Below, in pieces: positions 530 through 21,774 of a stretch of DNA of 24,166 nucleotides. The DNA is from a virus: positions 1 through 24,166 of IMG/VR virus record IMGVR_UViG_3300006737_000209, one strand, 5' to 3'. Within the stretch, counting starts at the first letter, position 1, and every line of letters starts with the position of its first letter. A program made the translations under genes and the position numbers. Under the pieces are notes generated by a model, which had not been told where the DNA came from, did no database searches, and was given only the letters and a program-made list of their open reading frames with translations.

Positions 530-537
530 TATAAATA
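530..537 (-). promoter_or_regulatory. TATTTATA motif, candidate late promoter
   Basis: Gene-sense sequence gcTATTTATAac lies 66 nt before the ATG at 463 and just after the terminator hairpin 543-558. It is one copy of an octamer found upstream of most transcription units here. Promoter function is inferred from position and recurrence only. Confidence 0.5.
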
Positions 538-542
538 GCAAA

Positions 543-558
543 AGGTCCCAAAGGACCT
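543..558 (-). terminator. Probable intrinsic terminator after the 55-aa gene
   Basis: In gene sense, AGGTCC pairs with GGACCT around a TTTG loop (6-bp stem), followed by TTTTGCTATTT. It begins 5 nt after the stop codon of the 55-aa gene and precedes the next promoter motif. The T-tract is short and interrupted, so termination may be partial. Confidence 0.6.
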
Positions 559-563
559 AGTAC

Positions 564-731
564 TTATTTTATTGCTTTAATATGATCTGTTATCTTTTTA
601 AATACTGTGAAGAATATTTCAAATTCATTACCTTTGAAATCTGCTGTTCTTAATTTAGCAAGAATAAATTCTGCTTCTTTTTTTGTAAGACCCTCATCTT
701 TCTTAGGTTTTATTTTTTCTATTAATCCCAT
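564..731 (-). CDS. Small 55-aa protein, function unknown
   Basis: ATG at 729-731 opens a 55-codon frame ending in TAA at 564-566. The protein starts MGLIEKIKPKKDEGLTKKEA, is rich in Lys and Glu, and looks mostly helical, with a TKKEAEFILAKLR segment and a C-terminal aromatic stretch (FEIFFTVFKKI). There is no signal peptide or membrane segment. Its reality is supported by the surroundings: a TATTTATA motif 44 nt upstream, a hairpin terminator 5 nt after the stop, and same-strand placement between two fibre-like genes. I have the impression of similar short proteins in other T4-like marine phages, but I cannot name a function. No Shine-Dalgarno sequence is present; the leader is A-rich. Confidence 0.65.
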   Translation of the reverse strand: MGLIEKIKPKKDEGLTKKEAEFILAKLRTADFKGNEFEIFFTVFKKITDHIKAIK

Positions 732-766
732 AAACTTTTTTTTGATAAAACTATTTTTAAATTATA

Positions 767-1741
767 CTATACATATATAAATATTTCTCCAGCTTCTATT
801 CTTATATTACCGTAATGATCAGCTAATGAACCTGATGCATCTTCTAATGAACCAGAAAATACACCACCTACATAATAAGCAGGAGATGCTCCATTACCTT
901 GGCTAGCTCCGAAATTATGTCCTACAGCTAACCTTCCATCATTACCATTAAAATCACCATTCCAAAATATAGCTGAACCTGAATGAGCTGTACCACCTGA
1001 TCCACCAAATATAATACCAGATTCATCACCTACCGAACTAGAACCTGAGTTAAGAAGTATAAATTTATCTTCTATATCTAGATTAGTAACATTAAGTTGT
1101 GTTGTAGTACCTGATACGGTTAAATTACCTCCTACATATGCATTGTTAGTTACAGTTAAACCGCTAAACGTAGGTGAATCGCCAGTTTGTAATTGTAAAT
1201 CGTGTGTTATACCATTAATACTTATAGAACCTTGACTTGGAACTGATATAGAACCTGAAACTGTTCCTGTAGGTAGTAGTGCGTCTATATCACCGGTAGT
1301 AACTGTACCGACTGTTGTAATAGCAGATTGTAAGAAGTGTTCTCCAGCTACAAAGTTAGTAGTTGAATCATGATCGATTTGTGCTGAAGCTGAAACTAAA
1401 CCGGACGGCAAAATAGCTGTTACGTTACCAGATGTTACAGTACCTAATGTAGTAAGATCACCAGTAGTAGAGTTAATATCTACTTGACTTGAGCCTGATA
1501 TTAATCCACCTGTTAAGCTAAAAGTTAAAGTATCGTTACCTGCTGAACCTGATATGTTAATTTCATTACTTCCTGTAGCGAAAGTTAACTGGCCGTTTTG
1601 ATTGTCAGCTATAAGATGAACACCGCCTATTGAAGCAGATACAAATGCGGTTTGAGCTGTTACAGATGTTAAGTACCCAGCGTCATTTGTTAATTGAGAT
1701 ATATTAGACCCTGATACTATTAATTTTTTCCACTTTGCCAT
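767..1741 (-). CDS. Fibre-like virion protein with WKKLIVSGS N-terminus and internal repeats
   Basis: A 324-aa Ser/Gly/Thr-rich, beta-prone protein, probably a tail fibre or other virion-surface component. It opens MAKWKKLIVSGS, shared with the neighbouring gene at 1-463. Residues about 81-122 and 115-164 form two imperfect repeats built around GTVTSGNVTAILPSG and GTVTTGDIDALLPTG, each ending in an SGS/SAS turn. Residues about 203-235 (GNLTVSGTTTQLNVTNLDIE, then DKFILLNSGS) resemble a module I know from other phage fibre proteins. No enzymatic motif is visible. It has its own upstream TATTTATA motif (1770-1777) and no Shine-Dalgarno sequence. The last codons overlap the TATTTATA motif serving the next small gene. 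Fibre-like is well supported; receptor-binding function is not shown. Confidence 0.7.
   Translation of the reverse strand: MAKWKKLIVSGSNISQLTNDAGYLTSVTAQTAFVSASIGGVHLIADNQNGQLTFATGSNEINISGSAGNDTLTFSLTGGLISGSSQVDINSTTGDLTTLGTVTSGNVTAILPSGLVSASAQIDHDSTTNFVAGEHFLQSAITTVGTVTTGDIDALLPTGTVSGSISVPSQGSISINGITHDLQLQTGDSPTFSGLTVTNNAYVGGNLTVSGTTTQLNVTNLDIEDKFILLNSGSSSVGDESGIIFGGSGGTAHSGSAIFWNGDFNGNDGRLAVGHNFGASQGNGASPAYYVGGVFSGSLEDASGSLADHYGNIRIEAGEIFIYV
776..783 (-). promoter_or_regulatory. TATTTATA motif before the 55-aa gene
   Basis: Gene-sense aaTATTTATAta lies inside the last codons of the fibre-like gene and 44 nt upstream of the ATG at 731. It is the only exact gene-sense copy that overlaps coding sequence, and it still precedes a gene start. 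Function is inferred from the shared motif. Confidence 0.45.
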
Positions 1742-1769
1742 GTCTATACAAAAATTTTAATTGTTTTAT

Positions 1770-1777
1770 TATAAATA
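1770..1777 (-). promoter_or_regulatory. TATTTATA motif before the 324-aa fibre-like gene
   Basis: Gene-sense aaTATTTATAat, in the 40-nt spacer 1742-1781, 28 nt upstream of the ATG at 1741. Same octamer and placement as the other candidate late promoters. Confidence 0.5.
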
Positions 1778-1781
1778 TTAG

Positions 1782-2069
1782 TTAATTATTAAAACCAAAG
1801 TAGTATTCGTTACTAGAACTATAAAATAATCCACCTTCTACTGGTGTTGGAGTTACTGATTGAGAATTAAACTGTAAAATACCTTGAGTATTTACTTTTA
1901 ACTTTTCTTCTCCACCTACTTTTATGTTAAAAATTTCTTCTACCCCGTCTAAATCTATAAACACCGATCCTGTAGTAGCAAAAGAGCCTGAAATATTAAG
2001 AGAACCTGTTAAATATTCTCCTAATTCAGGTAATTCGTTTTTTATTTGTTCCCAAAACAGTTGCGCCAT
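1782..2069 (-). CDS. Small fibre-like structural protein, 95 aa
   Basis: A 95-aa protein with two visible parts. The N-terminal helix (MAQLFWEQIKNELPELGEYL) is followed by beta-prone sequence with GSLNISGSF and TTGSVFIDLDG motifs and an aromatic C-terminus (NEYYFGFNN). The SGS-type turns resemble the fibre-like proteins downstream, so a small virion or fibre-associated role is likely; no named family is recognised. Its ATG overlaps the stop codon of the gp15-like gene by one base (TAATG), which suggests translational coupling at the end of the neck-gene operon. The next gene has its own promoter motif. Confidence 0.65.
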   Translation of the reverse strand: MAQLFWEQIKNELPELGEYLTGSLNISGSFATTGSVFIDLDGVEEIFNIKVGGEEKLKVNTQGILQFNSQSVTPTPVEGGLFYSSSNEYYFGFNN

Positions 2070-3328
2070 TATACTACTAATTTTCCTGTTACCACTATTT
2101 CCATTTCATCAGTTATAGCAAATCCTAACGATGGTGCAAAGTCTACTTTAAGAAGTGTACCGTCTTCTTCTATAGAAGTAATATTAGTTTTAGCCACAGC
2201 AGATCCATTTATAAAAACTTGAAAATCGTCAATAGTTGGTGTAGGAAAATTAGCAGGAGGTACTGCTATAGAAACATCTGGAAAAAATATAGAGTTATCA
2301 CTATCATTTATCACAGTTGCGTAACCATTGCTACTTATAGCTTTATTTATAGCTAAATAAGTACGTTCAGATTGAGTCATTCCACTTTGATTAATAGTAG
2401 TTTCTACTCTTCCTGCAAATGAATCATAAAATCTACCAGATGGTGCTTGACTAGCAGGTGATGATGATGCAACATTAAGTATTTCTTCAGTACCTGCTAC
2501 TTCTAAACCAAATTTTACTGATGATTTTGAATAAAACTTATTCATATTAGCTATAGACGTATTTATACTATCGGGAACTATGTGTCCCATCATTTTTATC
2601 TCAAACGATGTCTTAACTGTACGGTCTTGCCCTTGAGTCATCTCAGTTGAAGTAGTATAATTATCTATCATAGCTCTAAAATTGAACTTTTCAGGGTCTC
2701 CCCAATAAGCATCTGATGCAAAATTGATAGACTCTACTATTTTATTCATCTGCTCTACATACTCTGTAAAAACTACGCAAGAGTAGGTAATATTAACGTA
2801 ATCTGGTATAATTACACCGTATAATTCTTGAACTGGGTCTCTATTTGATAGAGCAGCAAATTTATCGTATACATTTTTCTTAGAATACTTTTTTTGAAAG
2901 ATAGAAAAGTTATTTGGATTGTTAGCATCTAACTTATTACCTAAACTTCTATTTTTTTCAACTGAATCTCTTTTGAACATTATTAACGGTGTTTGTATTT
3001 TACCGTTTTTATCTCTATAGAAGCCGTCTTTTTGAACTGCTTTCCATCTTTCAGGGGATCCGTATAGAATAGGTACATTAACCCTTTTTCCATTCCTAGT
3101 AACCGAAGGTTTAATTACATTATTAAAATAATAAATTATAGTTTCATCAATATCTCTTAATCCAATGTGGAATTGTTTAACATCGTCACCTTTTACTGAT
3201 CTATTATACCCTCTATTCTTTTTTAAAACGTCAGGAGTAGGTTGTTTTTGAGAATTATTATAAGTCTTGATAGAGTCTTGCGATAATTGAGACTGTCTTT
3301 TAGGTACTATTCTAGTTCTTTTAGCCAT
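2069..3328 (-). CDS. Tail sheath stabiliser/completion protein, gp15-like, with extra C-terminal domain
   Basis: A 419-aa protein resembling T4 gp15, which caps the tail and joins it to the neck. Residues about 50-255 carry the gp15-like order of features: a region around YYFNNVIKPSVTRNG, the strand KRVNVPILYGSPERW, TPLIMFKRDSV, the VFTEYVEQMNKIVESINF helix region, and a final FEIKMMGHIVPDS strand. T4 gp15 is about 270 aa, so this protein is clearly longer. The basic N-terminus (residues 1-50) and the Ser-rich linker plus beta-prone tail (about 285-419) are additions. The tail looks like a small beta-sandwich. It follows the gp14-like gene by 3 nt and overlaps the next gene by 1 nt. Assignment rests on motif order and synteny, not on an alignment. 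Confidence 0.65.
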   Translation of the reverse strand: MAKRTRIVPKRQSQLSQDSIKTYNNSQKQPTPDVLKKNRGYNRSVKGDDVKQFHIGLRDIDETIIYYFNNVIKPSVTRNGKRVNVPILYGSPERWKAVQKDGFYRDKNGKIQTPLIMFKRDSVEKNRSLGNKLDANNPNNFSIFQKKYSKKNVYDKFAALSNRDPVQELYGVIIPDYVNITYSCVVFTEYVEQMNKIVESINFASDAYWGDPEKFNFRAMIDNYTTSTEMTQGQDRTVKTSFEIKMMGHIVPDSINTSIANMNKFYSKSSVKFGLEVAGTEEILNVASSSPASQAPSGRFYDSFAGRVETTINQSGMTQSERTYLAINKAISSNGYATVINDSDNSIFFPDVSIAVPPANFPTPTIDDFQVFINGSAVAKTNITSIEEDGTLLKVDFAPSLGFAITDEMEIVVTGKLVV

Positions 3329-3331
3329 AAT

Positions 3332-3817
3332 TTATCTTACTCTTTGGATTCCTACTTTTTCTGCTCTTGTCAAGTGACAGTCTACTATTATAGATTCAGA
3401 AGAACCAAATTTACTACCATAATCGGTTAAATTATAGCTACTATCCCTACCTATGAATAATTGGTTCTCTCTTACTGTATCTACTTCGTAATAGTCTTCA
3501 TGCCAAAATACTATATCACCTACTTCAGGTACTACATTTGCATCTACTAAATCTTTTCTTATGAAAGCAAATGAGGCTTCTCTATTTAAATCTGGACCAA
3601 ATTCATCTACATCTATTACTTGATCTCCTCTAGTAATAAGACAATTAAATTTAACTGGGTCTAAATAAACTTTATCTGTAGCTTCTCCGTAAATATTAGA
3701 TTGAGTATCGCTTAAAGATAGTTTGTAGTAGCCTATTTCTTGTTCTACTATATCTTTTAAAAGTTCTCTACCAATCCTAGTGAGAACATTGAAATCTTTT
3801 TGACTACCAAATAACAT
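3332..3817 (-). CDS. Neck / head-completion protein, gp14-like by position
   Basis: A 161-aa protein between the gp13-like and gp15-like genes, the slot of the T4 neck protein gp14. It starts with a helical region (ISRIGRELL-type, residues about 10-30, containing LLKDIVEQEIGYYKLSL). The rest is beta-rich, including NIYGEATDKVYLDPV, a CLITRGDQ strand, and PEVGDIVFWHEDYYEVD. That last phrase is typical of small head-closure or tail-joining proteins with a beta-barrel. It is shorter than T4 gp14 (about 256 aa), so homology is uncertain and the call depends on context. It starts 3 nt after the 101-aa gene and ends 3 nt before the gp15-like gene, so the group is probably one operon. No Shine-Dalgarno sequence precedes it. 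Confidence 0.5.
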   Translation of the reverse strand: MLFGSQKDFNVLTRIGRELLKDIVEQEIGYYKLSLSDTQSNIYGEATDKVYLDPVKFNCLITRGDQVIDVDEFGPDLNREASFAFIRKDLVDANVVPEVGDIVFWHEDYYEVDTVRENQLFIGRDSSYNLTDYGSKFGSSESIIVDCHLTRAEKVGIQRVR

Positions 3818-3820
3818 ATG

Positions 3821-5325: not shown

Positions 5326-5336
5326 ATTATTTTATT

Positions 5337-5759
5337 TTATGTTAATGCTATAAAATAACCTACAGTAGCATCAGGGTCTATTGGAGATGCTTTTATAGAT
5401 CTTAGATCTCCATATAAAAATCCGTCGTTAAAAGTTTCACTAACGAACTCTGAGCTAAAGATAAAACTACCGCTACCGGTTACTAAAAAATTAAGCTCTC
5501 CAGTAGAACCACTAACTTGTAAGTTGATTGAGCTACTTGCAAAATTAGTTACTCTAGCATACTTTATACTACTTGATACAAACTGACCAGCTCCTGGTAG
5601 GTTATCTACGTTAATTAATTCTGTTGAAGAACCTGAAGGTATGTTCATTACTCTAGAGTCTGCATGATTGATACCGGGAATACGTATTTCTACGTTAGTA
5701 CCTCTTTCAACTCCGTTAAGTTTAACTCTTTCTCTTATAAAGTAAGTAAAATTGGCCAT
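5337..5759 (-). CDS. Small beta-rich structural protein, 140 aa
   Basis: A 140-aa protein, mostly Ser/Gly/Thr with alternating hydrophobic residues, which suggests a beta-sandwich. Recognisable stretches are IKYARVTNFASSSINLQVSG, then FLVTGSGSFIFSSE, then YGDLRSIKASPIDPDATVGY near the end. This pattern, with the 'GDL..I.A......V.YFIA' close, resembles small head-decoration or virion structural proteins in other phages, but I cannot name a family. It begins the neck operon: a TATTTATAAATA motif lies 12 nt before the ATG and the gp13-like gene starts 11 nt after the stop. The very short leader has no Shine-Dalgarno sequence. A head-decoration or neck-associated role is plausible and unproven. 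Confidence 0.6.
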   Translation of the reverse strand: MANFTYFIRERVKLNGVERGTNVEIRIPGINHADSRVMNIPSGSSTELINVDNLPGAGQFVSSSIKYARVTNFASSSINLQVSGSTGELNFLVTGSGSFIFSSEFVSETFNDGFLYGDLRSIKASPIDPDATVGYFIALT

Positions 5760-5771
5760 GTTGATATAGTT

Positions 5772-5783
5772 TATTTATAAATA
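5772..5783 (-). promoter_or_regulatory. TATTTATAAATA motif before the neck operon
   Basis: The 12-base palindrome TATTTATAAATA holds both TATTTATA (gene sense, 5776-5783) and the T4-type TATAAATA (gene sense, 5772-5779). It lies 12 nt upstream of the ATG at 5759. The next bases, AACTATATCAAC, closely match those before the portal gene. If TATAAATA is the active core, the mRNA leader is only a few bases long. Confidence 0.6.
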
Positions 5784-5787
5784 GCAA

Positions 5788-6474
5788 TTAATCCCTGAAG
5801 GTTTTATATACCTCTAATATAGGGGCAACTATATGATGTCTATGATTATATTCTAAAGAAGCTGTTTTAAATCCAGGTACGTTTTCTTCTAACCTAGCTA
5901 AAAACGAAAATCCAGTATCTCTTTTATTTTTGAGATCAATTTGAGCTAAATCTCCGCATATTACCATTTTAGATCCTTGACCTAATCTACCTATAACTGT
6001 TTCCATTTGACTATGAGTTACGTTTTGAGCTTCGTCTACTATTACAAATGAATTAACAAATGTTCTTCCTCTCATAAAAGCAAAAGGTACAATTTCTATA
6101 CTTCCTGCTTCCATTTCTTTCCTTACTTTAGCTTCGTTGTAAAGCATGAATAAGTTATGATAAATTGGTGCTAACCAAGGATCCATTTTTTCTCTTATAT
6201 CTCCTGGTAAAAATCCTATTTCTTCTTTAGCTACTGTTGGTCTTGTTATGATAACTTTTTCTATCTGTTTAGTAAATAGCATATCTAGAGCAACTTGTGT
6301 TGCAACCAATGTTTTTCCAGATCCAGCCATACCTTTAAGCATAGTAATTGGGTTTTCTAGTATAAGTGCTTTTGCTCTTTTTTGTTCTTCGTTAAGTTGT
6401 ACGTTAAATTTAATTGGTCTTTTCGGTCTTCTTTTTTGAACGAACACGTCGTCGTTGTGGTGGTTTGAAGGCAT
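5788..6474 (-). CDS. phoH: PhoH-like P-loop ATPase
   Basis: A 228-aa PhoH-family ATPase, a cytoplasmic P-loop protein related to superfamily 1 helicases and common in marine phages. Walker A is GMAGSGKT at residues 48-55. The family signature TRPTVAKEEIGFLPGDIREK lies at 78-97. Walker B is VIVDEAQN at 144-151 (Asp147, Glu148), and GDLAQIDL at 174-181 is the sensor-like motif. The length covers the PhoH domain alone, preceded by about 20 basic and polar residues. Phage PhoH is often called phosphate-starvation related, but its role in infection is unsettled; an RNA-related role is another possibility. It sits alone between the capsid terminator and the neck operon with its own TATTTATA motif, an insertion relative to T4. 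Confidence 0.93.
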   Translation of the reverse strand: MPSNHHNDDVFVQKRRPKRPIKFNVQLNEEQKRAKALILENPITMLKGMAGSGKTLVATQVALDMLFTKQIEKVIITRPTVAKEEIGFLPGDIREKMDPWLAPIYHNLFMLYNEAKVRKEMEAGSIEIVPFAFMRGRTFVNSFVIVDEAQNVTHSQMETVIGRLGQGSKMVICGDLAQIDLKNKRDTGFSFLARLEENVPGFKTASLEYNHRHHIVAPILEVYKTFRD

Positions 6475-6499
6475 ATATAATAACGTTTTAGTTTCTTTA

Positions 6500-6507
6500 T
6501 ATAAATA
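6500..6507 (-). promoter_or_regulatory. TATTTATA motif before phoH
   Basis: Gene-sense gaTATTTATAta lies 25 nt upstream of the phoH ATG at 6474 and 23 nt after the terminator 6531-6556. Its place right after a strong terminator supports promoter function. Confidence 0.55.
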
Positions 6508-6530
6508 TCGGAAAAATAAAGTATATAACC

Positions 6531-6556
6531 AAAAAAAAAGAGGCCCGAAGGCCTCT
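6531..6556 (-). terminator. Strong intrinsic terminator after the major capsid gene
   Basis: In gene sense, AGAGGCC pairs with GGCCTCT around a TTCG tetraloop, and the second arm runs into nine T residues. The GC-rich 7-bp stem, stable UUCG loop and long U-tract make a classic Rho-independent terminator. It lies 27 nt after the capsid stop codon and isolates the capsid unit from phoH. Confidence 0.92.
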
Positions 6557-6583
6557 CTTAATTTATAGAAAATCTATGTTAGA

Positions 6584-8284: not shown

Positions 8285-8304
8285 GATTGAATTTAAGTTT
8301 TAAT

Positions 8305-9687
8305 TTATTTAATAATTCCAGCTAATTTTTGCATCCTTAATACAGCTTCACTAGCTTCAGTAATTACTTCTGGTTTAGAAGCAGTTGTTCCTGTAGCTTT
8401 AGATGCCATACCTAGTTTTGATTCTCTAATGGTGCTTTTTGTAGTTTTAGCAACTACATTATCAGCAACAGTTTCGAATACTAATTTTACTTCTTTAACT
8501 GTTTCGGCTTTATCGAATGCAGCGATAACATTTACTTTTTGCGATTCAGTTAAATTATTTGTTTTGAAGACTTTGTTGACATAAAGTAATTTAGCATTTA
8601 GAAGATTAACTTCTTGCATTTTGCCTTTCAACTCATTGATAGTTTCCATAGCTTCTTCTAGTTCACTAGTTTCTTCTATTTCTACTTCTCTCATTGCATC
8701 AGACATTTTACCCATTTCAATGGATTTTACAAAATCAGCTACTGATTTGCCAGCTTTTTTAGCTTTGTCTTTAAGCATCATCATCACATCATCCATTTTA
8801 GCTTCATCCATATCTGTGTCTACTTCATTAGCTTCTACTTCAGAGACTTTTTCTCCGTCTTCTTTTGCGCTGTACTGTGCATCTTGTTTAGGGAATTTTC
8901 TTTTGATTAAGTCCATGACTGCATCATATCCCATTTTAGCTACACCGGCTGCTACAACACTCATTACAAGTGGAGCACCAACTGCTACAACATCAGCATC
9001 GAATTCGTTAATAGATTCGTCTTTGTGATCATCAGAATGCATAGCCTCGTCTTTTTTGTCGTGGTCCATAGCTTCATCTTTTTTGTCATGATCCATAGCT
9101 TCATCCATATCTTTATCTCCTTTACCTTCTTCTACTTCTTCTTCCATCTTTTTGTCTTCTTTATCTTCTTCAGATAATTCAGCGATTTCTTTTAGTAGTT
9201 CGTCTAAGTCAATTTCTTCTTCGTCTTCCGCTCCTACCATGTCATCAGCAGGCATTTCTTCTCCAGGCATTTCTTCGCCTTCGGAATCATGTCCCATTTC
9301 TTGAGCAATAATATCACGGATAAGATCTTTAAGGTCGTCCACTTCCATGTCCTTAACCTCAACATCTTCTTCTGCTTCCTCATCAGATTCTTCTGAATCA
9401 TCGTCAGCATCGTCAGCATCCATTTCTTCAGCTTCAACTGAAAGATCTTCCTCTATAGCTTCGTCTTTTTTGTCTTTATCCATTCCTTCTTCTACCTCTT
9501 CTTCGACTTCGTTTACTACTTCTTCTTCGACAGATGAATCATCCATTTCTTGAAGTTTAGCAGCTAACATGTCTTTAAGATGAGGAGTTAAAGTCTCTTC
9601 TAAAGCTTCTTTAGCATTAGCAATAGCGGCTTCTCTTACAGATTTAGCTTCAGCAATAGCTTGCTTGAATAAATCTTTATTTGCCAT
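8305..9687 (-). CDS. Prohead core scaffold protein, gp22-like, highly acidic
   Basis: A 460-aa scaffold candidate directly upstream of the capsid gene and downstream of the protease, as in T4 (21-22-23). Residues about 53-230 are extremely Asp/Glu-rich. The C-terminal part (about 345-410) holds the helical, gp22-like region with LLNAKLLYVNKVFKTNNLTE and VIAAFDKAETVKEVKLVFET, which I recognise from scaffold proteins of marine T4-like phages. Other features are a repeated DHDKKDEAM block (199-216) and an unusual hydrophobic segment at about 231-260 in the middle of an otherwise soluble protein. T4 gp22 is about 270 aa, so this one is enlarged by the acidic region. The scaffold is expected to be degraded by the gp21-like protease during maturation. 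Its mRNA has a leader of about 90 nt with a hairpin. Confidence 0.85.
   Translation of the reverse strand: MANKDLFKQAIAEAKSVREAAIANAKEALEETLTPHLKDMLAAKLQEMDDSSVEEEVVNEVEEEVEEGMDKDKKDEAIEEDLSVEAEEMDADDADDDSEESDEEAEEDVEVKDMEVDDLKDLIRDIIAQEMGHDSEGEEMPGEEMPADDMVGAEDEEEIDLDELLKEIAELSEEDKEDKKMEEEVEEGKGDKDMDEAMDHDKKDEAMDHDKKDEAMHSDDHKDESINEFDADVVAVGAPLVMSVVAAGVAKMGYDAVMDLIKRKFPKQDAQYSAKEDGEKVSEVEANEVDTDMDEAKMDDVMMMLKDKAKKAGKSVADFVKSIEMGKMSDAMREVEIEETSELEEAMETINELKGKMQEVNLLNAKLLYVNKVFKTNNLTESQKVNVIAAFDKAETVKEVKLVFETVADNVVAKTTKSTIRESKLGMASKATGTTASKPEVITEASEAVLRMQKLAGIIK
9040..9105 (-). repeat. 27-bp tandem repeat inside the scaffold gene
   Basis: Two 27-bp units (9040-9066 and 9067-9093, differing at a few positions) plus a partial third (9094-9105) encode repeated DHDKKDEAM nonapeptides. 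A diverged copy lies at about 9454-9483 (DKDKKDEAI). The period is a multiple of three, so copy-number change would keep the frame. Confidence 0.8.
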
Positions 9688-9754
9688 TTTTAATAAAAAA
9701 TTTGTGTGTTCGTACGATTATTGAAACCGTAATGTGAAGTTTATAATGTTTTTA

Positions 9755-9775
9755 ATACAGTATAAAGGACTGTAT
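9755..9775 (-). promoter_or_regulatory. Hairpin in the scaffold/capsid mRNA leader
   Basis: In gene sense, ATACAGT pairs with ACTGTAT (7 bp) around the loop CCTTTAT. It sits just after the TATTTATA motif, so it would lie near the 5' end of the leader. It may stabilise the capsid mRNA. There is no T-tract good enough for a terminator. Confidence 0.4.
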
Positions 9776-9782
9776 ATTTGTA

Positions 9783-9790
9783 TATAAATA
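9783..9790 (-). promoter_or_regulatory. TATTTATA motif before the scaffold-capsid operon
   Basis: Gene-sense taTATTTATAta lies within a perfect 9-bp inverted repeat, TTGTATATA-TT-TATATACAA (9778-9797). It is 95 nt upstream of the scaffold ATG, the longest leader in the window. The rest of the 140-nt spacer (9688-9827) holds the hairpin and AT-rich sequence with no further gene. Confidence 0.55.
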
Positions 9791-9827
9791 TATACAACTT
9801 ACAAAAACAAAATAAATTTATAAAGAT

Positions 9828-12855: not shown

Positions 12856-13093
12856 CTAAATAATCATACATTTTTGTATTATACGGTCTTTTTTTTCTTT
12901 TCACTGTTTTGAAACCAAGCTTCTCTCCATATTGAGTTGCTTTATTTTTTTTACCTTTTTTACCAAAAGCATAGGGAGTAGCATACTGAGCTCCTGACCC
13001 TGGTGTAAAAGTTGCTCCTGTACCGGTAGCACTAATTTCGTTCATCTCATGCAATACCTCTCTAATAAGTTTTCTCAATTCACTTATTTTCAT
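12830..13093 (-). CDS. Small basic protein in the prohead-core slot, 87 aa
   Basis: An 87-aa protein in three parts: an amphipathic N-terminal helix ([20 protein letters not shown]), a Gly/Thr-rich motif ([20 protein letters not shown]), and a basic C-terminus rich in Lys, Arg and Tyr. The N-terminal helix ends near L-H-E16, a possible gp21-type cleavage site. It occupies the place of T4 gp67, which has similar size but is acidic, so homology is doubtful. It overlaps the gene upstream by 4 nt (ATGA) and the gene downstream by 26 nt, which points to coupled translation. I know no function for it. A basic internal head protein that contacts DNA is one possibility. Confidence 0.65.
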
Positions 13094-13944
13094 GATTGTT
13101 TGAGCTCTTGAACTAGTTCATAATATTGCATTATATTAACTAAATGATCGTCAGTTACTTTTTTCGTTTTAGCAACTGGTATAATTGTTTTAGCAACTTC
13201 TTGCAATTTTATTACTACTATTTCATCGTCTACCTTATCTTTTAATTTTTCAATTATAGTTTTAAGTTTTTTTAATTCTTCATTTACTATATTTCGTAAA
13301 CGAGCAGAAGAATCTACGGACGTTATAAATTCTTTTAAAATATTTTTCTGTTCAGGTAGTAAGGTGCCGTATTTTGAATTAAATTTTTCTAATAAAATTT
13401 TAAAAGTTAATAGTTTTAAATCTTTATCGTATTTGCTATATTCTTCAATAAGGCTATCTCTTACTTTACTTTTATTCTGTCTTTCTTTAGTTAAATGTTC
13501 TAAAATAGTCGTTTTATTATCTACTAAAAAATTAGGATCTATTACATCTGTTACTTTATGTGCTTCCATTAAGCAGTAAAGAGCAGCTAAAGATTTATAG
13601 TCTTTAACATTAATAGAAAAGAATTCTTTTAAATCGTAGCTATTTTTTATTTCTCTTATTAGAGAATACTTTTGTTTTTTAAGATCTACTTTATCAATAT
13701 TTCTAGATACTTCTATAATAGTAGAAACTATAGATTCAGCTTTAGACTGGTTGACAGATTTGTTTTTAAGTACAAATTCATATAGTTTAAATTCACGTAC
13801 CAAAGTTGACTTGCCAGTGAAAAAGCGTTTAAGAATTTCTACAGCTTTAGAATCTTTTTTATTAAGTGTATCAGATGCTATCTGTTTTACCAGCAACTCA
13901 AATATAAGTCCTGTGTTTTTATACTTACTATGTTTAATGCGCAT
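13090..13944 (-). CDS. Helical protein after the portal gene, 284 aa, probable head-assembly role
   Basis: A 284-aa Lys/Glu/Leu-rich protein that looks almost entirely alpha-helical. It begins MRIKHSKYKNTGLIFELLVK, and an AALYCLMEAHKVTD segment and a long coiled-coil-like stretch at about 205-240 (RNIVNEELKKLKTIIEKLKD) follow. It sits between portal and prohead protease in the same unit as the 87-aa, 812-aa and protease genes, so a role in the prohead core or its initiation on the portal is likely. No family name or catalytic motif is recognised. It has its own TATTTATA motif upstream and overlaps the next gene by 4 nt. T4 gp68 (141 aa) has the same position, but I cannot show homology. Confidence 0.65.
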   Translation of the reverse strand: MRIKHSKYKNTGLIFELLVKQIASDTLNKKDSKAVEILKRFFTGKSTLVREFKLYEFVLKNKSVNQSKAESIVSTIIEVSRNIDKVDLKKQKYSLIREIKNSYDLKEFFSINVKDYKSLAALYCLMEAHKVTDVIDPNFLVDNKTTILEHLTKERQNKSKVRDSLIEEYSKYDKDLKLLTFKILLEKFNSKYGTLLPEQKNILKEFITSVDSSARLRNIVNEELKKLKTIIEKLKDKVDDEIVVIKLQEVAKTIIPVAKTKKVTDDHLVNIMQYYELVQELKQS

Positions 13945-13984
13945 TATTTAAAAGTTTTGTTGTACACATAGTATACCTTACCTA

Positions 13985-13992
13985 TATAAATA
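13985..13992 (-). promoter_or_regulatory. TATTTATA motif before the prohead-core operon
   Basis: Gene-sense acTATTTATAta lies in the 49-nt spacer between the portal stop and the ATG at 13944, 40 nt upstream of that ATG. Confidence 0.5.
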
Positions 13993-13993
13993 G

Positions 13994-15913
13994 TTATTGT
14001 TTATCTAAATCTTCGATTTGAGATTCGTCCAATAGACCGTCTTCTATTTTTTCTTTATTTTCAAATATTATCTGTTTAGTATCGTCAAATAAGTTTTTGT
14101 TTTTGAAAAACATAGATTTAGCTAAAGTATTATCTATTTTCTGGTCGTTTTCGTTTACTTTTTCGTTATCAGAATCAAATCCTCCTTTCATTCCATCAGT
14201 ACCCAGCGGGTCTCTTCCACCTAAACCATCGTTAGTTCCGTAGTGAGAAGCATGTATACGTGGTCTACCTCCTTTAGGTCCTATATCTCCTATACCTGGG
14301 GTATCGTCTTCATATCCTACGGGTACAGAACCAAATGGCATACCTTTAGAATCTCCCTGTCTCCTACCGTATAGAGAAGCCAAATCATGTGGAGTACCGT
14401 AAGACTTACCGGACTTAGCTGGGTCATTACCTTCATTTTCTATTTGACCTATTCTAAATAATCTCTTATAATCTTCAGTGACCAAATCTCTCATTTCCAT
14501 ATACTGATCTTCTGATAAATTAAATATATGATCGTAAATATAATCTGTAGGAAATAATTTAGTATCTAACATCTGGCTCGCTAAATCAACTTTTTCTTTT
14601 AACAAAGCTACTTTTTCTTGTTCAAATATTATAGATGGATTTGTTAAACTAACTTCAAAATTAGTTAATGATTCACCTTTAAATCCTTGAACGTAAAGAT
14701 GAACTAAAGCAATCTTAGTTAATTCAGATTCCATTATTCTTTGAATTCTTTCTACTGTTCTAGCGAATCTTATATCTTCCGCAGCTAGTGTAGCTTTCCC
14801 TTGTAAATCTCCTTCATATCCGAAATAAGCTTTAGGTACTTTTAATGCTGCAAACATTTTATCTCTTAGGTATTCTATATCATTAGTACCGTCGTAGTCT
14901 AAACCTTTTGTAGTATCAATTTTAGTTTGAGTATCTCCTCCTCTCATAGGAATATAATAATCTTCCATCATATTCATCATATTGAATCTAAGATTATAAT
15001 CTCCTGTATTAGGGTCAACGAAAGGTGTTTTTTTCATTTGATTGATAGTCTTTTGCATAAACTGCTCAACTTCGTTTGGTGGAATTTGTCCTACGTTAAT
15101 ATAAAAAGTTCTTTTCTCAGGAGCTCTCATAATACGATGTATCAACATCGCATCTTCCATCAAAGTAAGTTGTTTGAATATTTTTCTAGCAGGCTCTATA
15201 AAAGATCTACCATAAGGTAAGTAGTGAGTATCTGAGATTAATCTGAAGTGTGCTATTTCGTAATTGTCAAATTCTACTACTTTACTGTTACTTTTAGGTC
15301 TGTAATTAGGATCTTGAGATGAAGCTAATCCGTCAGGATCTAATTGAAAAGTTACTTTTGCAGGATTATCAGGATCTAAACCTTCTTGTCTTGTCATATG
15401 GTAAACTGTATAAGGAAGAACGTTATAAACTCCAAATTCTTCTGCTATTTCTAATTTTAAAAAGAAGTCTCCATACTTACACATATTACGAGTCCAAGAC
15501 CATAAATTGAATTCTATATTTAAAACATCGTAAAATAAATTATAAAGAATTTTCTGTATATTTTCGTCTGAAGATTTTATGGAAAGTACTTCCCCCATAT
15601 CGTTTTTTAAAGTTGCTTCATCAGATAGTATATCTAAGGTTGATGCTATTATAGGATCAGTATCCATAGCCTCATAATCAGAATATAATTGTATTCTTAA
15701 TGTCTGATAGTTAAGATTAGGATTAAAAATATTTTTATTATTGTAGATATATAATCTTGAAAATCTATCTATTAAAGAATTAGTCTGATATCTGCCAGTT
15801 GTTTGTATCTGATTTACATCAGCAACTTTTAGTGTATCACCACCTATATTTCTTATTACTACATCGGAAGAAAATAATCTACCTAATCGTTTAAAAAGTG
15901 AAGTATCTGCCAT
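13994..15913 (-). CDS. Portal vertex protein, gp20-like
   Basis: A 639-aa portal protein, the dodecameric ring at the head vertex through which DNA is packaged and where prohead assembly starts. Family features include YSDYEAMDTDPIIASTLDIL (78-97), the KYGDFFLKLEI strand (146-156), and the diagnostic stretch RAPEKRTFYINVG (263-275) through MMEDYYIPMRGGD (315-327) and IEYLRDKMFAALKVPKAYFG (346-365), all parallel to T4 gp20. T4 gp20 is 524 aa. The extra length is a C-terminal Gly/Asp/Pro-rich, probably disordered tail (about 500-590) followed by an acidic helical end. It lies 26 nt after the terminase with a TATTTATAAATA motif between, so it may be transcribed separately. No sheath or tube gene lies between terminase and portal, unlike T4. 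Confidence 0.93.
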   Translation of the reverse strand: MADTSLFKRLGRLFSSDVVIRNIGGDTLKVADVNQIQTTGRYQTNSLIDRFSRLYIYNNKNIFNPNLNYQTLRIQLYSDYEAMDTDPIIASTLDILSDEATLKNDMGEVLSIKSSDENIQKILYNLFYDVLNIEFNLWSWTRNMCKYGDFFLKLEIAEEFGVYNVLPYTVYHMTRQEGLDPDNPAKVTFQLDPDGLASSQDPNYRPKSNSKVVEFDNYEIAHFRLISDTHYLPYGRSFIEPARKIFKQLTLMEDAMLIHRIMRAPEKRTFYINVGQIPPNEVEQFMQKTINQMKKTPFVDPNTGDYNLRFNMMNMMEDYYIPMRGGDTQTKIDTTKGLDYDGTNDIEYLRDKMFAALKVPKAYFGYEGDLQGKATLAAEDIRFARTVERIQRIMESELTKIALVHLYVQGFKGESLTNFEVSLTNPSIIFEQEKVALLKEKVDLASQMLDTKLFPTDYIYDHIFNLSEDQYMEMRDLVTEDYKRLFRIGQIENEGNDPAKSGKSYGTPHDLASLYGRRQGDSKGMPFGSVPVGYEDDTPGIGDIGPKGGRPRIHASHYGTNDGLGGRDPLGTDGMKGGFDSDNEKVNENDQKIDNTLAKSMFFKNKNLFDDTKQIIFENKEKIEDGLLDESQIEDLDKQ

Positions 15914-15923
15914 TAATACAGTT

Positions 15924-15935
15924 TATTTATAAATA
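15924..15935 (-). promoter_or_regulatory. TATTTATAAATA motif before the portal gene
   Basis: This 12-base palindrome, flanked by AACTGTATT in gene sense, is almost the same as the element before the neck operon at 5772-5783. It is 10 nt upstream of the portal ATG and fills most of the 26-nt spacer. It holds both TATTTATA and TATAAATA on the gene strand. Confidence 0.6.
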
Positions 15936-15939
15936 TCGT

Positions 15940-17514
15940 TTATCTAAGTATCCAAGAAATATCTTCTTTTCCATGCTCAGTATCTATAATATACGGATTA
16001 TTTTGTTGATTTCCAACTGTTTTTATTACAGATCTATTTTTAGCATTAAGGTTAGTAAATGAAGAAAGCTGGGCTCTAGCTAGGTCCATTCCTTGTTGTC
16101 TTAACCTTAAAGCAGTATCTCTAACATATAGTGCAGTTGCACACGCCATTAGTAAGTCATCATTGTAACTAGTTTGTGCTTGAGCTTTACCATTTTTCCA
16201 AACGAATACTCTCATTTCACCCATTAATCGCTTTGACTGTACGGTAACACCTTTTTCCCTTATATATTCCATCATTTTAGCTATAACTAAGGGCCTAGTT
16301 CTCATTGACATAGTGAAGCCTGGTACTAGTTTGTCTCTTTCATATTTAGCCATATATGATTCTACTGTATCCATTTGGTTTCTAGGACTATAGTAGAGAT
16401 TACGGTACTGTCTTTCCATTACTTGTTCTATAGTAGCCCATCCTATATTAGCGTTTTCTACAACTAATAAAGCGTCATTATACTCAGCTGCTACTGCTAC
16501 CAGAACATTTCCAAAATCTTTAGGAGATAATTTACCTTTATATTCACCTACCTGTACACAGGTTTCAATATCAAATACGTGAAAAGCTGAGTAATCTGCT
16601 GAATCTCCTCTAGCTACATCGGCTACTACCATATAAGATTTTGAGTAATCAGGTTGTTCCCAAATCCATAAATTACCATCAACTCCTCTTTTTTCAACAG
16701 GGTCTTTTTGATAAGTCTGTTCGTAAAAAAGTAAATCATCCGGCTCAAAAACAGTATCTCCTGATGCTAGAAAATCGCAATCACATTCCTGACCAGCCAT
16801 TCGAGGTCCTAAGTCTCGATCTTGCTGATCTCGCCATTCATCATTTCTTTCGGGATGAACGGTCCACGGTAATCTTATAGGTAAAAAACTGTTTTCCCCT
16901 GATTCTGCTTTTTCCCAAGTTTGGTGAAACCAATTTCCAATTCCGTTAGGAGTTGATAAAGCCATACACTGTCCACCCGTTGCTAACGTTTGTTGCGCAG
17001 CTGTAAAGGTTTCTGCAATATTATCTATAAACGCTGCTTCATCTATTAATAACAGGGAAACAGCTTCTGATCTTGCTGCATCTGCGTTAGAAGATTTAGC
17101 TGTAATTTTAGAACCGTTTTTAAGTCTTAATGATAATTTATTCTTTTCTACGGCAGGTAAACGTAACCACTTAGGTAACTGGTCGTACATAAACATTGCT
17201 TTAGAAACCAAGTTTCTTGCTGTTGCCTGTGTAGTTGCTAATGCTAATACATTTTTATCTTTATGAAAGAGCATTAACCATAAACTATATGCTGCTGCTA
17301 AAGTAGAAATACCTAACTGTCTAGATTTAAGAGTAATAATATAGTCATTATCCCTGAATAAATGTAGGACTTCTGACTGAAAAGGGTATAAATTAAAAAG
17401 AATTCTACCTCTAGTAGGATGCTGTATATAGCAGTACTTTTTCATAAAGTACGACGGATCCTTAGCACATTTTAAAAACTCTTGTGCTATTATTTTTTTA
17501 ATATTCTGTGCCAT
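15940..17514 (-). CDS. Terminase large subunit, gp17-like
   Basis: A 524-aa packaging motor with ATPase and nuclease domains. ATPase: adenine-binding region YPFQSEVLHLF (43-53), Walker A SRQLGIST (64-71), Walker B LLLIDEAAF (154-162; Asp158, Glu159), and coupling motif ALSTPNGIGNWF (185-196). Nuclease: VVADVARGDSADYSAF (296-311) with Asp299, LLVVENANIGW (349-359) with Glu353, and TSYNDDLLMACATAL (448-462) with Asp452/453. Together these form the RNase H-like metal site. It is shorter than T4 gp17 (610 aa) but complete in motifs. It begins 5 nt after the 370-aa nuclease-like gene; no gene for a typical small terminase is recognisable upstream. It acts at the portal to fill the head and cut DNA. 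Confidence 0.95.
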   Translation of the reverse strand: MAQNIKKIIAQEFLKCAKDPSYFMKKYCYIQHPTRGRILFNLYPFQSEVLHLFRDNDYIITLKSRQLGISTLAAAYSLWLMLFHKDKNVLALATTQATARNLVSKAMFMYDQLPKWLRLPAVEKNKLSLRLKNGSKITAKSSNADAARSEAVSLLLIDEAAFIDNIAETFTAAQQTLATGGQCMALSTPNGIGNWFHQTWEKAESGENSFLPIRLPWTVHPERNDEWRDQQDRDLGPRMAGQECDCDFLASGDTVFEPDDLLFYEQTYQKDPVEKRGVDGNLWIWEQPDYSKSYMVVADVARGDSADYSAFHVFDIETCVQVGEYKGKLSPKDFGNVLVAVAAEYNDALLVVENANIGWATIEQVMERQYRNLYYSPRNQMDTVESYMAKYERDKLVPGFTMSMRTRPLVIAKMMEYIREKGVTVQSKRLMGEMRVFVWKNGKAQAQTSYNDDLLMACATALYVRDTALRLRQQGMDLARAQLSSFTNLNAKNRSVIKTVGNQQNNPYIIDTEHGKEDISWILR

Positions 17515-17519
17515 AACTT

Positions 17520-18632: not shown

Positions 18633-19238
18633 TTATCCTTCTTCTCCTGCTTCGAAATCTATTTCTTCTCCGCCTAGGTCTTCTCCACCGCCTTCTTCTC
18701 CTCCGGCTGCTCCTGCATCATCAAATGCTGCTTCTTCGCCTCCACCTTCTTCACCGGGGAAGTCTGCTCCGCCTCCGCCTCCGCCAAAGTCTGCTTCGCC
18801 GCCTTCGCCGCCTTCTTCACCAGCTCCTTTTAAAGGTGCTTGTTGATAGAGTTTAGATAATTTATCTAAAGCTTGTTGAAAATCACTTATATTTCCAAGC
18901 ATATACCTTTTACCTAATATTTGAGCTTGGAAATTTTTACCGGTCCATTTTAACGTAAAATCTTGACCGTTTACTAAATTTACTTTAAAAGTAGTAGGTT
19001 TAGGTGATACCCAATCTATAGTATCTACAAATTCTTTAAAATCCTCAGTCATAAGTTTAACTAAAGTATTTTTTAAAGTTGGAAATTTGCTTAACATTTG
19101 ATCAGTAGCATCTTCTAATACTGTCTGTTCACTAGCTTTTTCATCCCCTATTGGATCTTCTGGTTTAGGTTCATCAGCTTCTTTTAAGACTTCCAAATAA
19201 GCTTGTTCAACTAAATATTTAAATCTACTTACTTTCAT
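18633..19238 (-). CDS. 201-aa protein with Gly/Glu-rich C-terminal tail
   Basis: A 201-aa protein with three parts: an N-terminal helix (MKVSRFKYLVEQAYLEVLKE, ending at an L-K-E20/A21 site), a folded domain at about 45-135 with FPTLKNTLVKLMTEDFKEFV and a beta region around KVNLVNGQDFTLKWTGKNFQ, and a low-complexity tail at 138-201 made almost only of Gly, Glu, Ala and Asp. The tail is encoded by DNA far richer in GC than the surroundings. I recognise no family. The start is supported by tight spacing after the 833-aa gene (1 nt) and by the conserved-looking N-terminal helix. It sits in the packaging operon, so a head or packaging role is plausible; no enzymatic motif is visible. Confidence 0.65.
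   Translation of the reverse strand: MKVSRFKYLVEQAYLEVLKEADEPKPEDPIGDEKASEQTVLEDATDQMLSKFPTLKNTLVKLMTEDFKEFVDTIDWVSPKPTTFKVNLVNGQDFTLKWTGKNFQAQILGKRYMLGNISDFQQALDKLSKLYQQAPLKGAGEEGGEGGEADFGGGGGGADFPGEEGGGEEAAFDDAGAAGGEEGGGEDLGGEEIDFEAGEEG
18636..18827 (-). repeat. GC-rich low-complexity coding repeat (Gly/Glu tail)
   Basis: About 190 bp of imperfect GGN/GAN codon repeats encode the Gly/Glu-rich tail of the 201-aa protein. It is the longest obviously GC-rich block in the window. There is no single unit length; it looks like slippage-prone triplet and hexamer expansion. Confidence 0.7.
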
Positions 19239-19239
19239 A

Positions 19240-21741
19240 TTATTTCTTTTTCTTTTTATACCCTTTATGCCAGTGTTCGTTTTGAGTAATTATTTTTAAC
19301 TCGTTGACCGGAATATCTCTTACTACTTTTCTATCTTTCTTAAAAACCACATCGTAATGAGTTACTACATACTTATTTCCTTCTTTAATTAAGGTATGTT
19401 TTTCTGGTATACACATTCCATGGCCGTAAGTTTCGTGAACTACATGAGCAGCACAGTCGTGTTTGTAACCTGGTGCTGATTCATGAAAAGAATCTATGGC
19501 AAGATTATGAATTAAATCAGGATTGTCATCTGTAAGTTCTTCTAGTTCACTATCGGTTAATTTACTACCATCTTCAAATTCAGCATATACAGCAAATGCA
19601 TCTGCGGTACCATCATCATATCCTTGAGATTTATCTACTCCATCTACTTCTATAGTCCCAATATCAACTGCTTTACCGTTGATAATTAGTGCATTTTCAT
19701 CTTCATTTATTGCTTCACTTACTCCCTTACCTAATCCAGGTAAGTTACTAAGATCTTGTATATATTGATCAGTTTTAACAACTATTTTACCTAACACCTC
19801 AGTTTCTTCTCTATCACGTCTATCGGCTGCTTTCTTAGTAATCTTAATTAATGTTAATAGAGATACTTCAGGATTAAAGTCTGGATCTTTATCTTTAAAG
19901 TTGCTATTATAATACTGTTTTTGATGTATTCTATAGTCTTCACCTTCATGCTCTAAATTATGATATTGAAGATGAACAAACATTGGAGCATATTGCCCCA
20001 TTCTAGCTTTGATACCACTCTTATCATGTGCTTTTAAAGCTTCTATGGCATCGTTTTCACTAGCTACTCCTTTAGGTAGTAGGTCTGCAAATAACTTTTT
20101 AGTAAACATATCTGGACTTTTTTCATTAGCATCATCTATTACTCCTGATCCTGTGAATGAACGGTCTGTATATTCTTTTAACTGACCTTCTCCTACAAAA
20201 CCGCCTGTTTGTATTTTAATACCGTAATGATCTGCTAAAGCTTCTATTACTTCTAGTGCTTCTTCTTGTTCTGAGAATTCACTATCAATAGCTCTATCTC
20301 TTATTAGGTTAATAAAATCTTGTAAAGCACCAACTCTTTCGTTAATATTTTCTAATCTCATATCTAGGTAACCTGTATTTGCAAGTACTTGATAAATAAG
20401 ATGTACTGCGTCCATTTCATCATAGCCGTACTTTTGTGCTACACCAGAAATAAATCTTTTAACGTATTTTTCTGCTTCAGGATTTATATTAGCTTCCCCT
20501 ACTACCTTAGTATCTGGGTTGATGCCCCCTGCTCTGTAGATAGATGCTCTTTCATGAGATGCTAGTCCCATTTTAATATATTTCATAACTAGTTCTTTTT
20601 TATCTTCCGGAACATCAACATTATCGATGTCTGGTTGAAGCAATGTCATTAAATCTTTTTTTAATGCCATATTAGCATTTTGACCTTGACCTTTGTACTT
20701 ATCGTATATACTACCTATTTCTTTTTTATTTTTATTTAAGATATCTAAAGCCAGTCTAGGATAATTAGGTATACTCTGTTGATATTTTTTAATTAAGTCT
20801 GATTCTTCTTTTATTTCTTGACTATTACCGAATTTATCTGCAAGAAACTTTAATGTTTTTTCTTCTGACCAATTCCAATGGTTCATTATATAGTCTACTA
20901 ATTCTTGTCCTTTTAATTCCATTTCGTTATCTGTTCCTTCAGCGAATAGGTCTAAATTAGTATCAGCTATCACTATATCGTTAGCTTTTAAGTCCATCAT
21001 AGCATCGTAGGCAGTAGTTTCGTCATTAAAGTAATAAGTATCTGAACCGCTAAATTCAACTTCTTTTCTGTATTTATCGTCAAGTATTCCAATAGCCTGT
21101 CTAGCATCTCTAATGTCTACTTTTAAGTAATACATACCTTCAGGAGCTTCAGATAATTGTAATTTAATTCCAACTTGTTTAGCCGCTTTTTCAACTTTAC
21201 CTTTTAAATCTTTTCTATCTTGACCAGAAGATTTTTTGTACATATCTAACATTCTCAGATATTTTTGCCTATCTGTTTCTTCTTCGTTTAGAGATTTAAA
21301 GTGTTTTAGTAATTCATTTTTTAATACATCTACATTAACTATAGGCTCTCCTGAGGGTTTAACTCCTACGTCAACTAAATCTTTATCAAAAGAAAAATCT
21401 ACTAAATGTAACCTATCTTCTCTAATATCAAAAGTAAATTCGTCTTCAAAATCGTTTTTATATTTTACATATACATCAAAAGTATTTTCTTGAATATGAT
21501 GAGCTTTAATTGTTTCTATTTCATCACCTGCTTCTCTCAAAGCTTCGATTAATGCTTTTCCTACTTCTTTTGCTATTGCTTTAGTTTCTTTAATTGAAAA
21601 AGTTATTCCTTCTTGTTCACTAGTAAGTTTGACTTTAACTCCGTCTTTAGCTAGATCAGCAGCTTTTTTTTCATCGTCAGTCGCAACGAATCCATCATCT
21701 CCCATTTCTTCTTCTTTAATAGTAATTTTATCTTTAGCCAT
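19240..21741 (-). CDS. Large multi-domain protein of unknown function with Cys/His-rich C-terminus, 833 aa
   Basis: An 833-aa, strongly charged protein heading the packaging operon. It seems to be built of several modules: an N-terminal alpha/beta part (about 35-150), a region with MYYLKVDIRDARQAIGILDD (about 203-222) and a YDAMMDLKANDIVIA segment, a helical centre with LVDYIMNHWNWSEEKTLKFL, and a C-terminal module (about 756-828) containing KHDCAAHVVHETYGHGMCIP and then a beta part with THYDVVFKK and IPVNELKII. That module has Cys763, His766, His769, His774, Cys777 and His782, a pattern that could bind a metal. The protein ends in a run of Lys. No signal peptide, membrane segment or known catalytic motif is visible. 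A virion-internal or assembly role is suggested only by its place in the late region. Confidence 0.6.
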   Translation of the reverse strand: MAKDKITIKEEEMGDDGFVATDDEKKAADLAKDGVKVKLTSEQEGITFSIKETKAIAKEVGKALIEALREAGDEIETIKAHHIQENTFDVYVKYKNDFEDEFTFDIREDRLHLVDFSFDKDLVDVGVKPSGEPIVNVDVLKNELLKHFKSLNEEETDRQKYLRMLDMYKKSSGQDRKDLKGKVEKAAKQVGIKLQLSEAPEGMYYLKVDIRDARQAIGILDDKYRKEVEFSGSDTYYFNDETTAYDAMMDLKANDIVIADTNLDLFAEGTDNEMELKGQELVDYIMNHWNWSEEKTLKFLADKFGNSQEIKEESDLIKKYQQSIPNYPRLALDILNKNKKEIGSIYDKYKGQGQNANMALKKDLMTLLQPDIDNVDVPEDKKELVMKYIKMGLASHERASIYRAGGINPDTKVVGEANINPEAEKYVKRFISGVAQKYGYDEMDAVHLIYQVLANTGYLDMRLENINERVGALQDFINLIRDRAIDSEFSEQEEALEVIEALADHYGIKIQTGGFVGEGQLKEYTDRSFTGSGVIDDANEKSPDMFTKKLFADLLPKGVASENDAIEALKAHDKSGIKARMGQYAPMFVHLQYHNLEHEGEDYRIHQKQYYNSNFKDKDPDFNPEVSLLTLIKITKKAADRRDREETEVLGKIVVKTDQYIQDLSNLPGLGKGVSEAINEDENALIINGKAVDIGTIEVDGVDKSQGYDDGTADAFAVYAEFEDGSKLTDSELEELTDDNPDLIHNLAIDSFHESAPGYKHDCAAHVVHETYGHGMCIPEKHTLIKEGNKYVVTHYDVVFKKDRKVVRDIPVNELKIITQNEHWHKGYKKKKK

Positions 21742-21766
21742 TATATGTGTAAGTTTTATATAGGTA

Positions 21767-21774
21767 TATAAATA
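21767..21774 (-). promoter_or_regulatory. TATTTATA motif before the packaging operon
   Basis: Gene-sense ttTATTTATAta lies in the 39-nt spacer between the 208-aa gene and the 833-aa gene, 25 nt upstream of the ATG at 21741. It would drive the 833-aa, 201-aa, 370-aa and terminase genes, which have no further motif between them. Confidence 0.5.

Follow-up and report, generated by a model that had tools for sequence, protein, structure and literature searches.

We analysed a viral record of 24,166 bp (IMGVR_UViG_3300006737_000209; this whole stretch is referred to as the window) in which the octamer TATTTATA, read in the sense of the genes, recurs shortly upstream of start codons. We consider it likely that this octamer is a -10-like late-promoter element of a T4-superfamily clade related to Flavobacterium phage immuto, and that it is read by a divergent gp55-like phage sigma factor. 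The proposal builds on the element itself, its orientation, its conservation upstream of orthologous genes, its link with the structural blocks of the immuto genome, and a separate motif class in the early region of that phage. It also takes in a conserved protein, present in immuto and its relatives, for which a sigma-like fold is predicted.

The GC content of the window is about 33%, and its 25 called genes all lie on the minus strand, with no plus-strand gene among them. Ten window proteins were scanned for families; T4-type matches were obtained for terminase, portal, protease, major head protein and head-tail adaptor, which are head, packaging or connector families, and for PhoH, and four proteins had no family. 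The terminase of the window shares 77% identity with its immuto counterpart and 50% with the one from Mel-JY01, and does not exceed 43% with the remaining ones (best 40 of 2,679 records). Judged by sequence, immuto is the nearest isolate to the window phage, whose host may be a member of the Flavobacteriia. The complete genome of immuto and two long related contigs, G001 and G002, were used for comparison.

Placement, orientation and conservation of the octamer

The copies of the octamer in the window are given in Table 1. Nine plus-strand copies of TATAAATA, each of which is TATTTATA in gene sense, and four minus-strand copies of TATAAATA (2344, 2560, 5772 and 15924) make a total of 13. This confirms a previous reading made from the sequence only (the sequence-only reading), in which all 13 had been placed correctly and gene-sense TATAAATA had been limited to 2344, 2560 and two palindromic copies. 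Dinucleotide shuffles of the whole window contained a mean of 6.1 copies, and 2 out of 100 reached 13. Taken by itself, the raw count departs only mildly from what shuffling gives, and is unconvincing without placement and orientation. Eight of the nine gene-sense copies are located in spacers, which make up 627 of the 24,166 bp when the incomplete gene at the left end is included; this corresponds to ~12.8 copies per kb of spacer versus ~0.04 per kb of coding sequence. Seven of the nine spacers of at least 18 nt carry the octamer, against 0.47 expected by Markov resampling (gene 2-463 was left out of this set). All nine copies lie 14-95 nt upstream of a start codon, once the 55-aa gene 564-731 is counted, and about 10% of the window falls within 100 nt upstream of its 25 starts. 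The placement of the window octamers is not due to chance.

The 55-aa gene, which the sequence-only reading had not named, was matched by tblastn in immuto and in parts of G001 and G002. It explains the odd copy at 776, because it begins 44 nt downstream; as had been supposed, this copy at the very end of a gene precedes another start. The two terminators that had been proposed before copies are supported too. Terminators are not a general mark of octamers: by a strict rule they were present upstream in 4/23 (immuto), 1/28 (G001), 1/25 (G002) and 1/7 (window) octamer-bearing spacers, and in 4/77, 4/55, 2/63 and 0/2 octamer-free spacers, respectively.

Equal frequency in both orientations had been named in advance as the outcome that would count against a promoter. 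This outcome did not occur, and the proposal withstood the check: we found 215 sense and 14 antisense spacer copies in 80 related viral contigs (contig-end genes included). Sense copies were ahead in 78 of these contigs, two were tied and in none were antisense copies ahead, although the 80 contigs are related to one another and are not independent. An earlier count without contig-end genes gave 215 and 15, and 10 of these 15 antisense copies overlapped a sense copy. In individual sequences the sense and antisense spacer copies numbered 8 and 2 (window), 26 and 7 (immuto), 32 and 3 (G001), and 32 and 4 (G002). Expressed per kb of spacer this is 2.6 and 0.7 in immuto, 3.7 and 0.35 in G001, and 3.8 and 0.48 in G002; coding sequence of these three has 0.03-0.11 per kb.

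Conservation was studied upstream of orthologues, taken as sequences with a tblastn match starting within the first three residues (L029 lies in G001 and L038 in G002, so that both are counted twice in these sets). TATTTATA was present upstream of all 65 orthologues of gene 13090-13944 (48 distinct), with no antisense copy. It was also present upstream of 75 of the 80 portal orthologues (50 of 54 distinct), the other five reading TATTTATT. Scaffold-gene orthologues have TATTTATA at 87-96 nt in 20 of 24 cases and TATTTATT in the other four, and the eight phoH orthologues have exact TATTTATA (two), TATTTATT (five) or TATGTATA (one). Many window genes had three or fewer usable matches and were uninformative. 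Upstream of the terminase gene, which has no copy in the window, the octamer was found in 8 of 78 relatives and TATAAATA only in 4 of 78. The octamer is missing within 70 nt of most of the tightly packed window genes and their orthologues. In gene sense it is preferentially preceded by A or C and followed by A/T and then A-rich sequence, with little information upstream of base -1.

Table 1. Octamer copies and an additional gene in the window.
Feature	Position	Strand	Remarks
TATTTATA	530..537	minus	66 nt before gene 2-463; after terminator-like hairpin 558-543 (minus strand)
TATTTATA	776..783	minus	within last codons of gene 767-1741; 44 nt before 55-aa gene 564-731
TATTTATA	1770..1777	minus	28 nt before gene 767-1741
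TATTTATA	5776..5783	minus	within palindrome TATTTATAAATA; 16 nt before gene 5337-5759
TATTTATA	6500..6507	minus	25 nt before phoH gene 5788-6474; after terminator-like hairpin 6559-6536 (minus strand)
TATTTATA	9783..9790	minus	95 nt before acidic scaffold-like gene 8305-9687; centre of A+T-rich inverted repeat
TATTTATA	13985..13992	minus	40 nt before gene 13090-13944
TATTTATA	15928..15935	minus	within palindrome TATTTATAAATA; 14 nt before portal gene (gp20-like) 13994-15913
TATTTATA	21767..21774	minus	25 nt before gene 19240-21741
TATAAATA in gene sense	2344..2351	minus	inside coding sequence; probably chance
TATAAATA in gene sense	2560..2567	minus	inside coding sequence; probably chance
55-aa gene, similar to KNV73_gp054 product of immuto (137396)	564..731	minus	tblastn 39% identity, E 6e-10

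Some other features of these genomes were noted. The leader of the scaffold-like gene (9688-9800, minus strand) is ~95 nt long and contains inverted repeats, one of them around the octamer; orthologues show similar repeats. In the region 13994-17514 the terminase gene is directly followed by the portal gene, whereas T4 and P-SSM4 have tail sheath and tube genes in between; those of immuto are at 147-150 kb. The 18-37 kb region of immuto contains genes annotated for 7-deazaguanine DNA modification (QueC, QueD, QueE, FolE and DpdA). No Rfam family was detected in the window at gathering thresholds.

The form of the octamer and a second motif class in immuto

When TATAAATA and TATTTATA are written in one register they differ only at bases 4-5, which are AA in the former, T4 word and TT in the latter. 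The sequence-only reading had described a conserved element at the starts of transcription units, in reverse sense to the T4 late promoter, and had offered TATA(T/A)A as its actual -10 in one of two possible explanations. Late units do begin with a recurrent element of fixed orientation. The reverse sense is not retained: the reverse-complement relation of the two words is coincidental, because TAT..ATA is nearly palindromic. TATA(T/A)A is not supported either, as base 8 can be T, and the resulting TATTTATT breaks TATA(T/A)A and leaves TATTTAT intact; the constant part of the element consists of these first seven bases. The changed late-sigma preference that the same reading had offered stands as the best explanation of such an element, and we put it forward as a proposal. 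In a T4 structure Y97 stacks against A-12, N13 and H95 contact A-9, and T99 contacts A-8 (PMC7892883). With the register kept as in T4, A-12 and A-8 (bases 2 and 6, A in both words) would remain and positions -10 and -9 would become T, so that TATTTATA would present A-12, T-10, T-9 and A-8.

Unbiased 8-mer counts in immuto returned the octamer and pieces of a second motif, TATATTTAGGTATCAATAATT. The core of this second class is TAT[AC]TTTA. In immuto, 28 of 33 copies of it are preceded by TTG at a distance of exactly 20 nt, and the same holds for 10 of 14 copies in G001 and for 15 of 21 in G002. No fixed TTG spacing was found upstream of TATTTATA, that is, no conserved -35. The Flavobacterium sigmaA box is described as TAnnTTTG at -12 to -5 (PMC9723704), and the second-class promoter resembles it, with A replacing the last G. 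The Bacteroidota sigmaA promoter (TTG ... TAnnTTTG) has an A/T box similar to the late element and a likeness, fixed spacing included, in the early-region class of immuto; the late element has another box and no fixed TTG. An unsupervised expectation-maximization (EM) motif search mixed the late and early classes, both of which contain TAT.TTA-like words; because EM merged them, exact words and fixed-spacing counts were used.

The two classes occupy different parts of the immuto genome. The octamer is present in 23 spacers, 16 of which belong to two structural blocks, delimited by eye on the annotated genome, that hold 29 of the 100 spacers (Fisher 4e-6). None of the 19 strict second-class motifs (TATATTTAG or ATATTTAGG) lies in these blocks, and 16 of them are found at 60-77 kb, among small genes. 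With a loose second-class pattern, 5 of 32 genes are inside the structural blocks and six also bear the octamer. The octamer at 43412, outside the blocks, precedes an endolysin-holin cassette. In G001 and G002 the motif AATAAAGGTT is present just before several start codons (27 of 88 upstream regions of G002 by EM). It is a Shine-Dalgarno-like AAAGG, though the presumed hosts are said not to depend on such signals: translation initiation in the Flavobacteriaceae is described as using other properties (PMC9723704).

The octamer was also compared with known systems by counting in the 60 nt before genes, using a stretch of ~50 kb each for T4, P-SSM4, Mel-JY01 and RM378. The T4 late promoter TATAAATA is read by gp55 with gp33 and gp45, the last of which links late transcription to replication in that phage. 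Like TATTTATA, it is a single -10-like A/T octamer with no -35 that stands before structural genes. The sense/antisense counts of TATAAATA were 12/5 for 52 genes of the T4 late region and 7/0 for 44 genes of P-SSM4, a phage whose late promoters also precede head/tail-region genes and which has a gp55. Those of TATTTATA were 6/0 for 43 genes in Mel-JY01, 7/2 for 23 in the window, 24/6 for 223 in immuto, 31/2 for 214 in G001 and 25/4 for 197 in G002. Gene-sense TATAAATA was found in 2 of the 23 window upstream regions, both of them palindromes, versus 7 of 23 for TATTTATA, and neither word was present before the 62 genes of the Rhodothermus phage RM378. The spacer motif of the latter phage, TTATTTAAAGAAAA, is similar in having TATTTA followed by A-rich sequence. 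The word change tracks the phage clade, with RM378 having TTATTTAA and LR756508 giving no clear picture.

A candidate sigma factor in immuto and its relatives

The late-sigma profile PHROG_234 (phrog_234), the family of T4 gp55, matched one immuto protein, KNV73_gp118 (gp118), which is annotated as hypothetical; the match is weak (E 0.008). T4 and P-SSM4 have a canonical gp55 that matches this profile. Relatives of gp118 are present in G001 and G002 (60% identity) and in at least 80 viral contigs. A search of 50,697 phage records with gp118 gave six matches, namely four immuto records, Mel-JY01 and LR756508 (40% identity); the Mel-JY01 protein as query added RM378 (E 0.002, with 17% of the query covered). 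Phage records with gp118 relatives are those ranked first among the terminase relatives (best 40 of 2,679 records). In addition, a profile of the immuto-type proteins finds Mel-JY01 (E 1.4e-47) and RM378 (E 9.7e-4, a distant match). In Pfam gp118 had no match, and its G001 and G002 relatives matched DUF2624 below the cut-off. Mel-JY01 (PP395634) is recorded as a phage of the cyanobacterium Microcystis, although the closest relatives of its terminase and candidate sigma are in Flavobacterium phages, and the host assignment may be worth checking.

Immuto, G001 and G002 share a conserved protein whose predicted fold is sigma-like. The predicted fold has a mean predicted local distance difference test (pLDDT) score of 80. 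On re-alignment to solved structures the top row was the gp55 chain 7d7c_F (133 aligned, root-mean-square deviation 5.6) with a Z of 10.0, which by the range of the tool is possibly non-specific for a helical model, rows within 1 Z being tied. Most of the 50 rows listed are sigma factors or polymerase complexes by title. Some phage sigma factors were among the rows obtained from a viral structure library, where the best E (0.004) belonged to a nameless protein.

We aligned 18 proteins by MAFFT, nine canonical gp55 proteins and nine very distant, or far, members. The place of Y97 is Y in all nine far members, as in T4. N13, which is N in seven of the nine canonical proteins, is N in none of the far members (T in six), and T99, invariant in the canonical set, is G, Q or S in all nine. 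These changes would fit an altered -9 pocket and suggest an altered -8 pocket as well. T4 gp55 is also shorter, and its C-terminal part aligns poorly; L113 and its relatives have ~95 more C-terminal residues, which form a helical domain predicted with a pLDDT of 91. Compared alone with solved structures this domain gave no convincing match, the best (Z 4.8) being a chain of a yeast polymerase II initiation complex. No match to the gp45-family clamp (phrog_223) was obtained in immuto, G001, G002 and two partial contigs, a search that lacked a phage positive control and in which other clamp types were not searched. The annotated DNA polymerases of immuto are of family A. We regard the evidence for gp118 as a gp55-like sigma as good but not conclusive.

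Alternative explanations and implications

Chance words in A+T-rich spacers might be invoked in view of the GC content and of the shuffles that reached the raw count, but the bias of 215 to 14 and the conservation in 65 of 65 orthologues make this exceedingly improbable. A general AT-rich word was rejected on the same counts. The closeness of the octamer to start codons would also be expected of a signal acting at the RNA level (a translation start context, processing site or leader element), all the more as initiation in the Flavobacteriaceae is said to rely on non-Shine-Dalgarno properties (PMC9723704). Distances of 14 to 95 nt to the start are unfit for a ribosome signal, however, most tightly packed genes and their orthologues lack the octamer, and two window copies follow terminators, so that we hold such a signal to be very unlikely.

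It is quite unlikely that the octamers are T4 late promoters of the classical type TATAAATA that belong to the opposite strand and direct antisense transcription, either into the upstream gene or for regulation. Each of the nine copies does give the exact T4 core when the plus strand is read, and two are in the palindrome TATTTATAAATA, but across many contigs the position of the element with respect to the following start codon is maintained, its flank preference is likewise in gene sense, T4 and P-SSM4 put TATAAATA mainly in gene sense, and no plus-strand gene was called in the window. A variant of the host sigmaA -7 box (TAnnTTTG), for which no phage sigma would be needed, is unlikely too. 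Both elements are A/T-rich, TATTTA is common to TATTTATA and the second-class TATATTTAG, and several sigmaA box variants are described for F. psychrophilum (PMC9723704). Against this, TA and TTT are adjacent in the octamer and not two bases apart, no TTG stands at a set upstream distance as it does in the second class, and the octamer is concentrated in the structural blocks of immuto.

Several results weigh against a late promoter read by a gp118-type sigma. TTG is present 22 nt upstream of 5 of 27 G001 octamers, and 7 of the 23 octamer spacers of immuto are outside the structural blocks. RM378, with its weak sigma match, has TTATTTAA and not TATTTATA, in a less one-sided arrangement (10 sense and 5 antisense in 26 spacers). 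LR756508 has a gp118 relative and yet TATTTATA in only 1 of 31 spacers (50 kb examined), and is too weak to be used as a further positive. PHROG_234 matched one of five records, with none of four relatives, including G001 and G002 and their gp118 relatives, but also 7 of 14 cellular control genomes. In a comparison of gp118 with all PHROGs, PHROG_234 scored E 0.5 and two families of unknown function scored better, while the G001 and G002 relatives matched no PHROG at all. The immuto-type profile misses gp55 of T4 and P-SSM4, as PHROG_234 misses Mel-JY01 and RM378. No gp55 chain was retrieved by profile searches of the PDB, which gave nothing relevant, and Foldseek alone was not significant (best E 0.07); the caution attached to the Z of 10.0 belongs here as well. 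Furthermore, E77 of T4 gp55, a polymerase-contact residue, is S, T or A in all nine far members. H95 was rejected as a specificity switch, as it is F in P-SSM4, which uses TATAAATA.

For the late promoter and its phage sigma, which we continue to favor, the following mechanism may be envisaged. Early genes would be transcribed by the RNA polymerase and sigmaA of the host from promoters composed of TTG, 20 nt and TAT[AC]TTTA. The phage would then make the divergent gp55-like sigma, gp118 in immuto. Once joined to the host core polymerase, this sigma would bring the enzyme to TATTTATA by way of its region 2, with no -35 element. Melting of TATTTATA and initiation a few bases downstream would give short leaders before the structural and lysis genes. 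It is also possible, though we put this forward tentatively, that the immuto clade has rewired late transcription, such that an unannotated gp55-like sigma with a folded C-terminal domain of its own reads TATTTATA instead of TATAAATA, works without a T4-type clamp, and has changed its base-reading pocket together with the word.

The literature search among open-licence PMC papers found none describing the TATTTATA element. It would be a late promoter of a known kind with a changed -10-like word, and the protein presumed to read it is unannotated in immuto. A widespread group of environmental phages thereby gains a testable late promoter and a candidate sigma, by which operons may be parsed in many metagenomic contigs. 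The two-base difference would be a natural change in a well-studied sigma-DNA contact, and a relative in which no T4-type clamp was detected raises the question of how late genes are timed without gp45.

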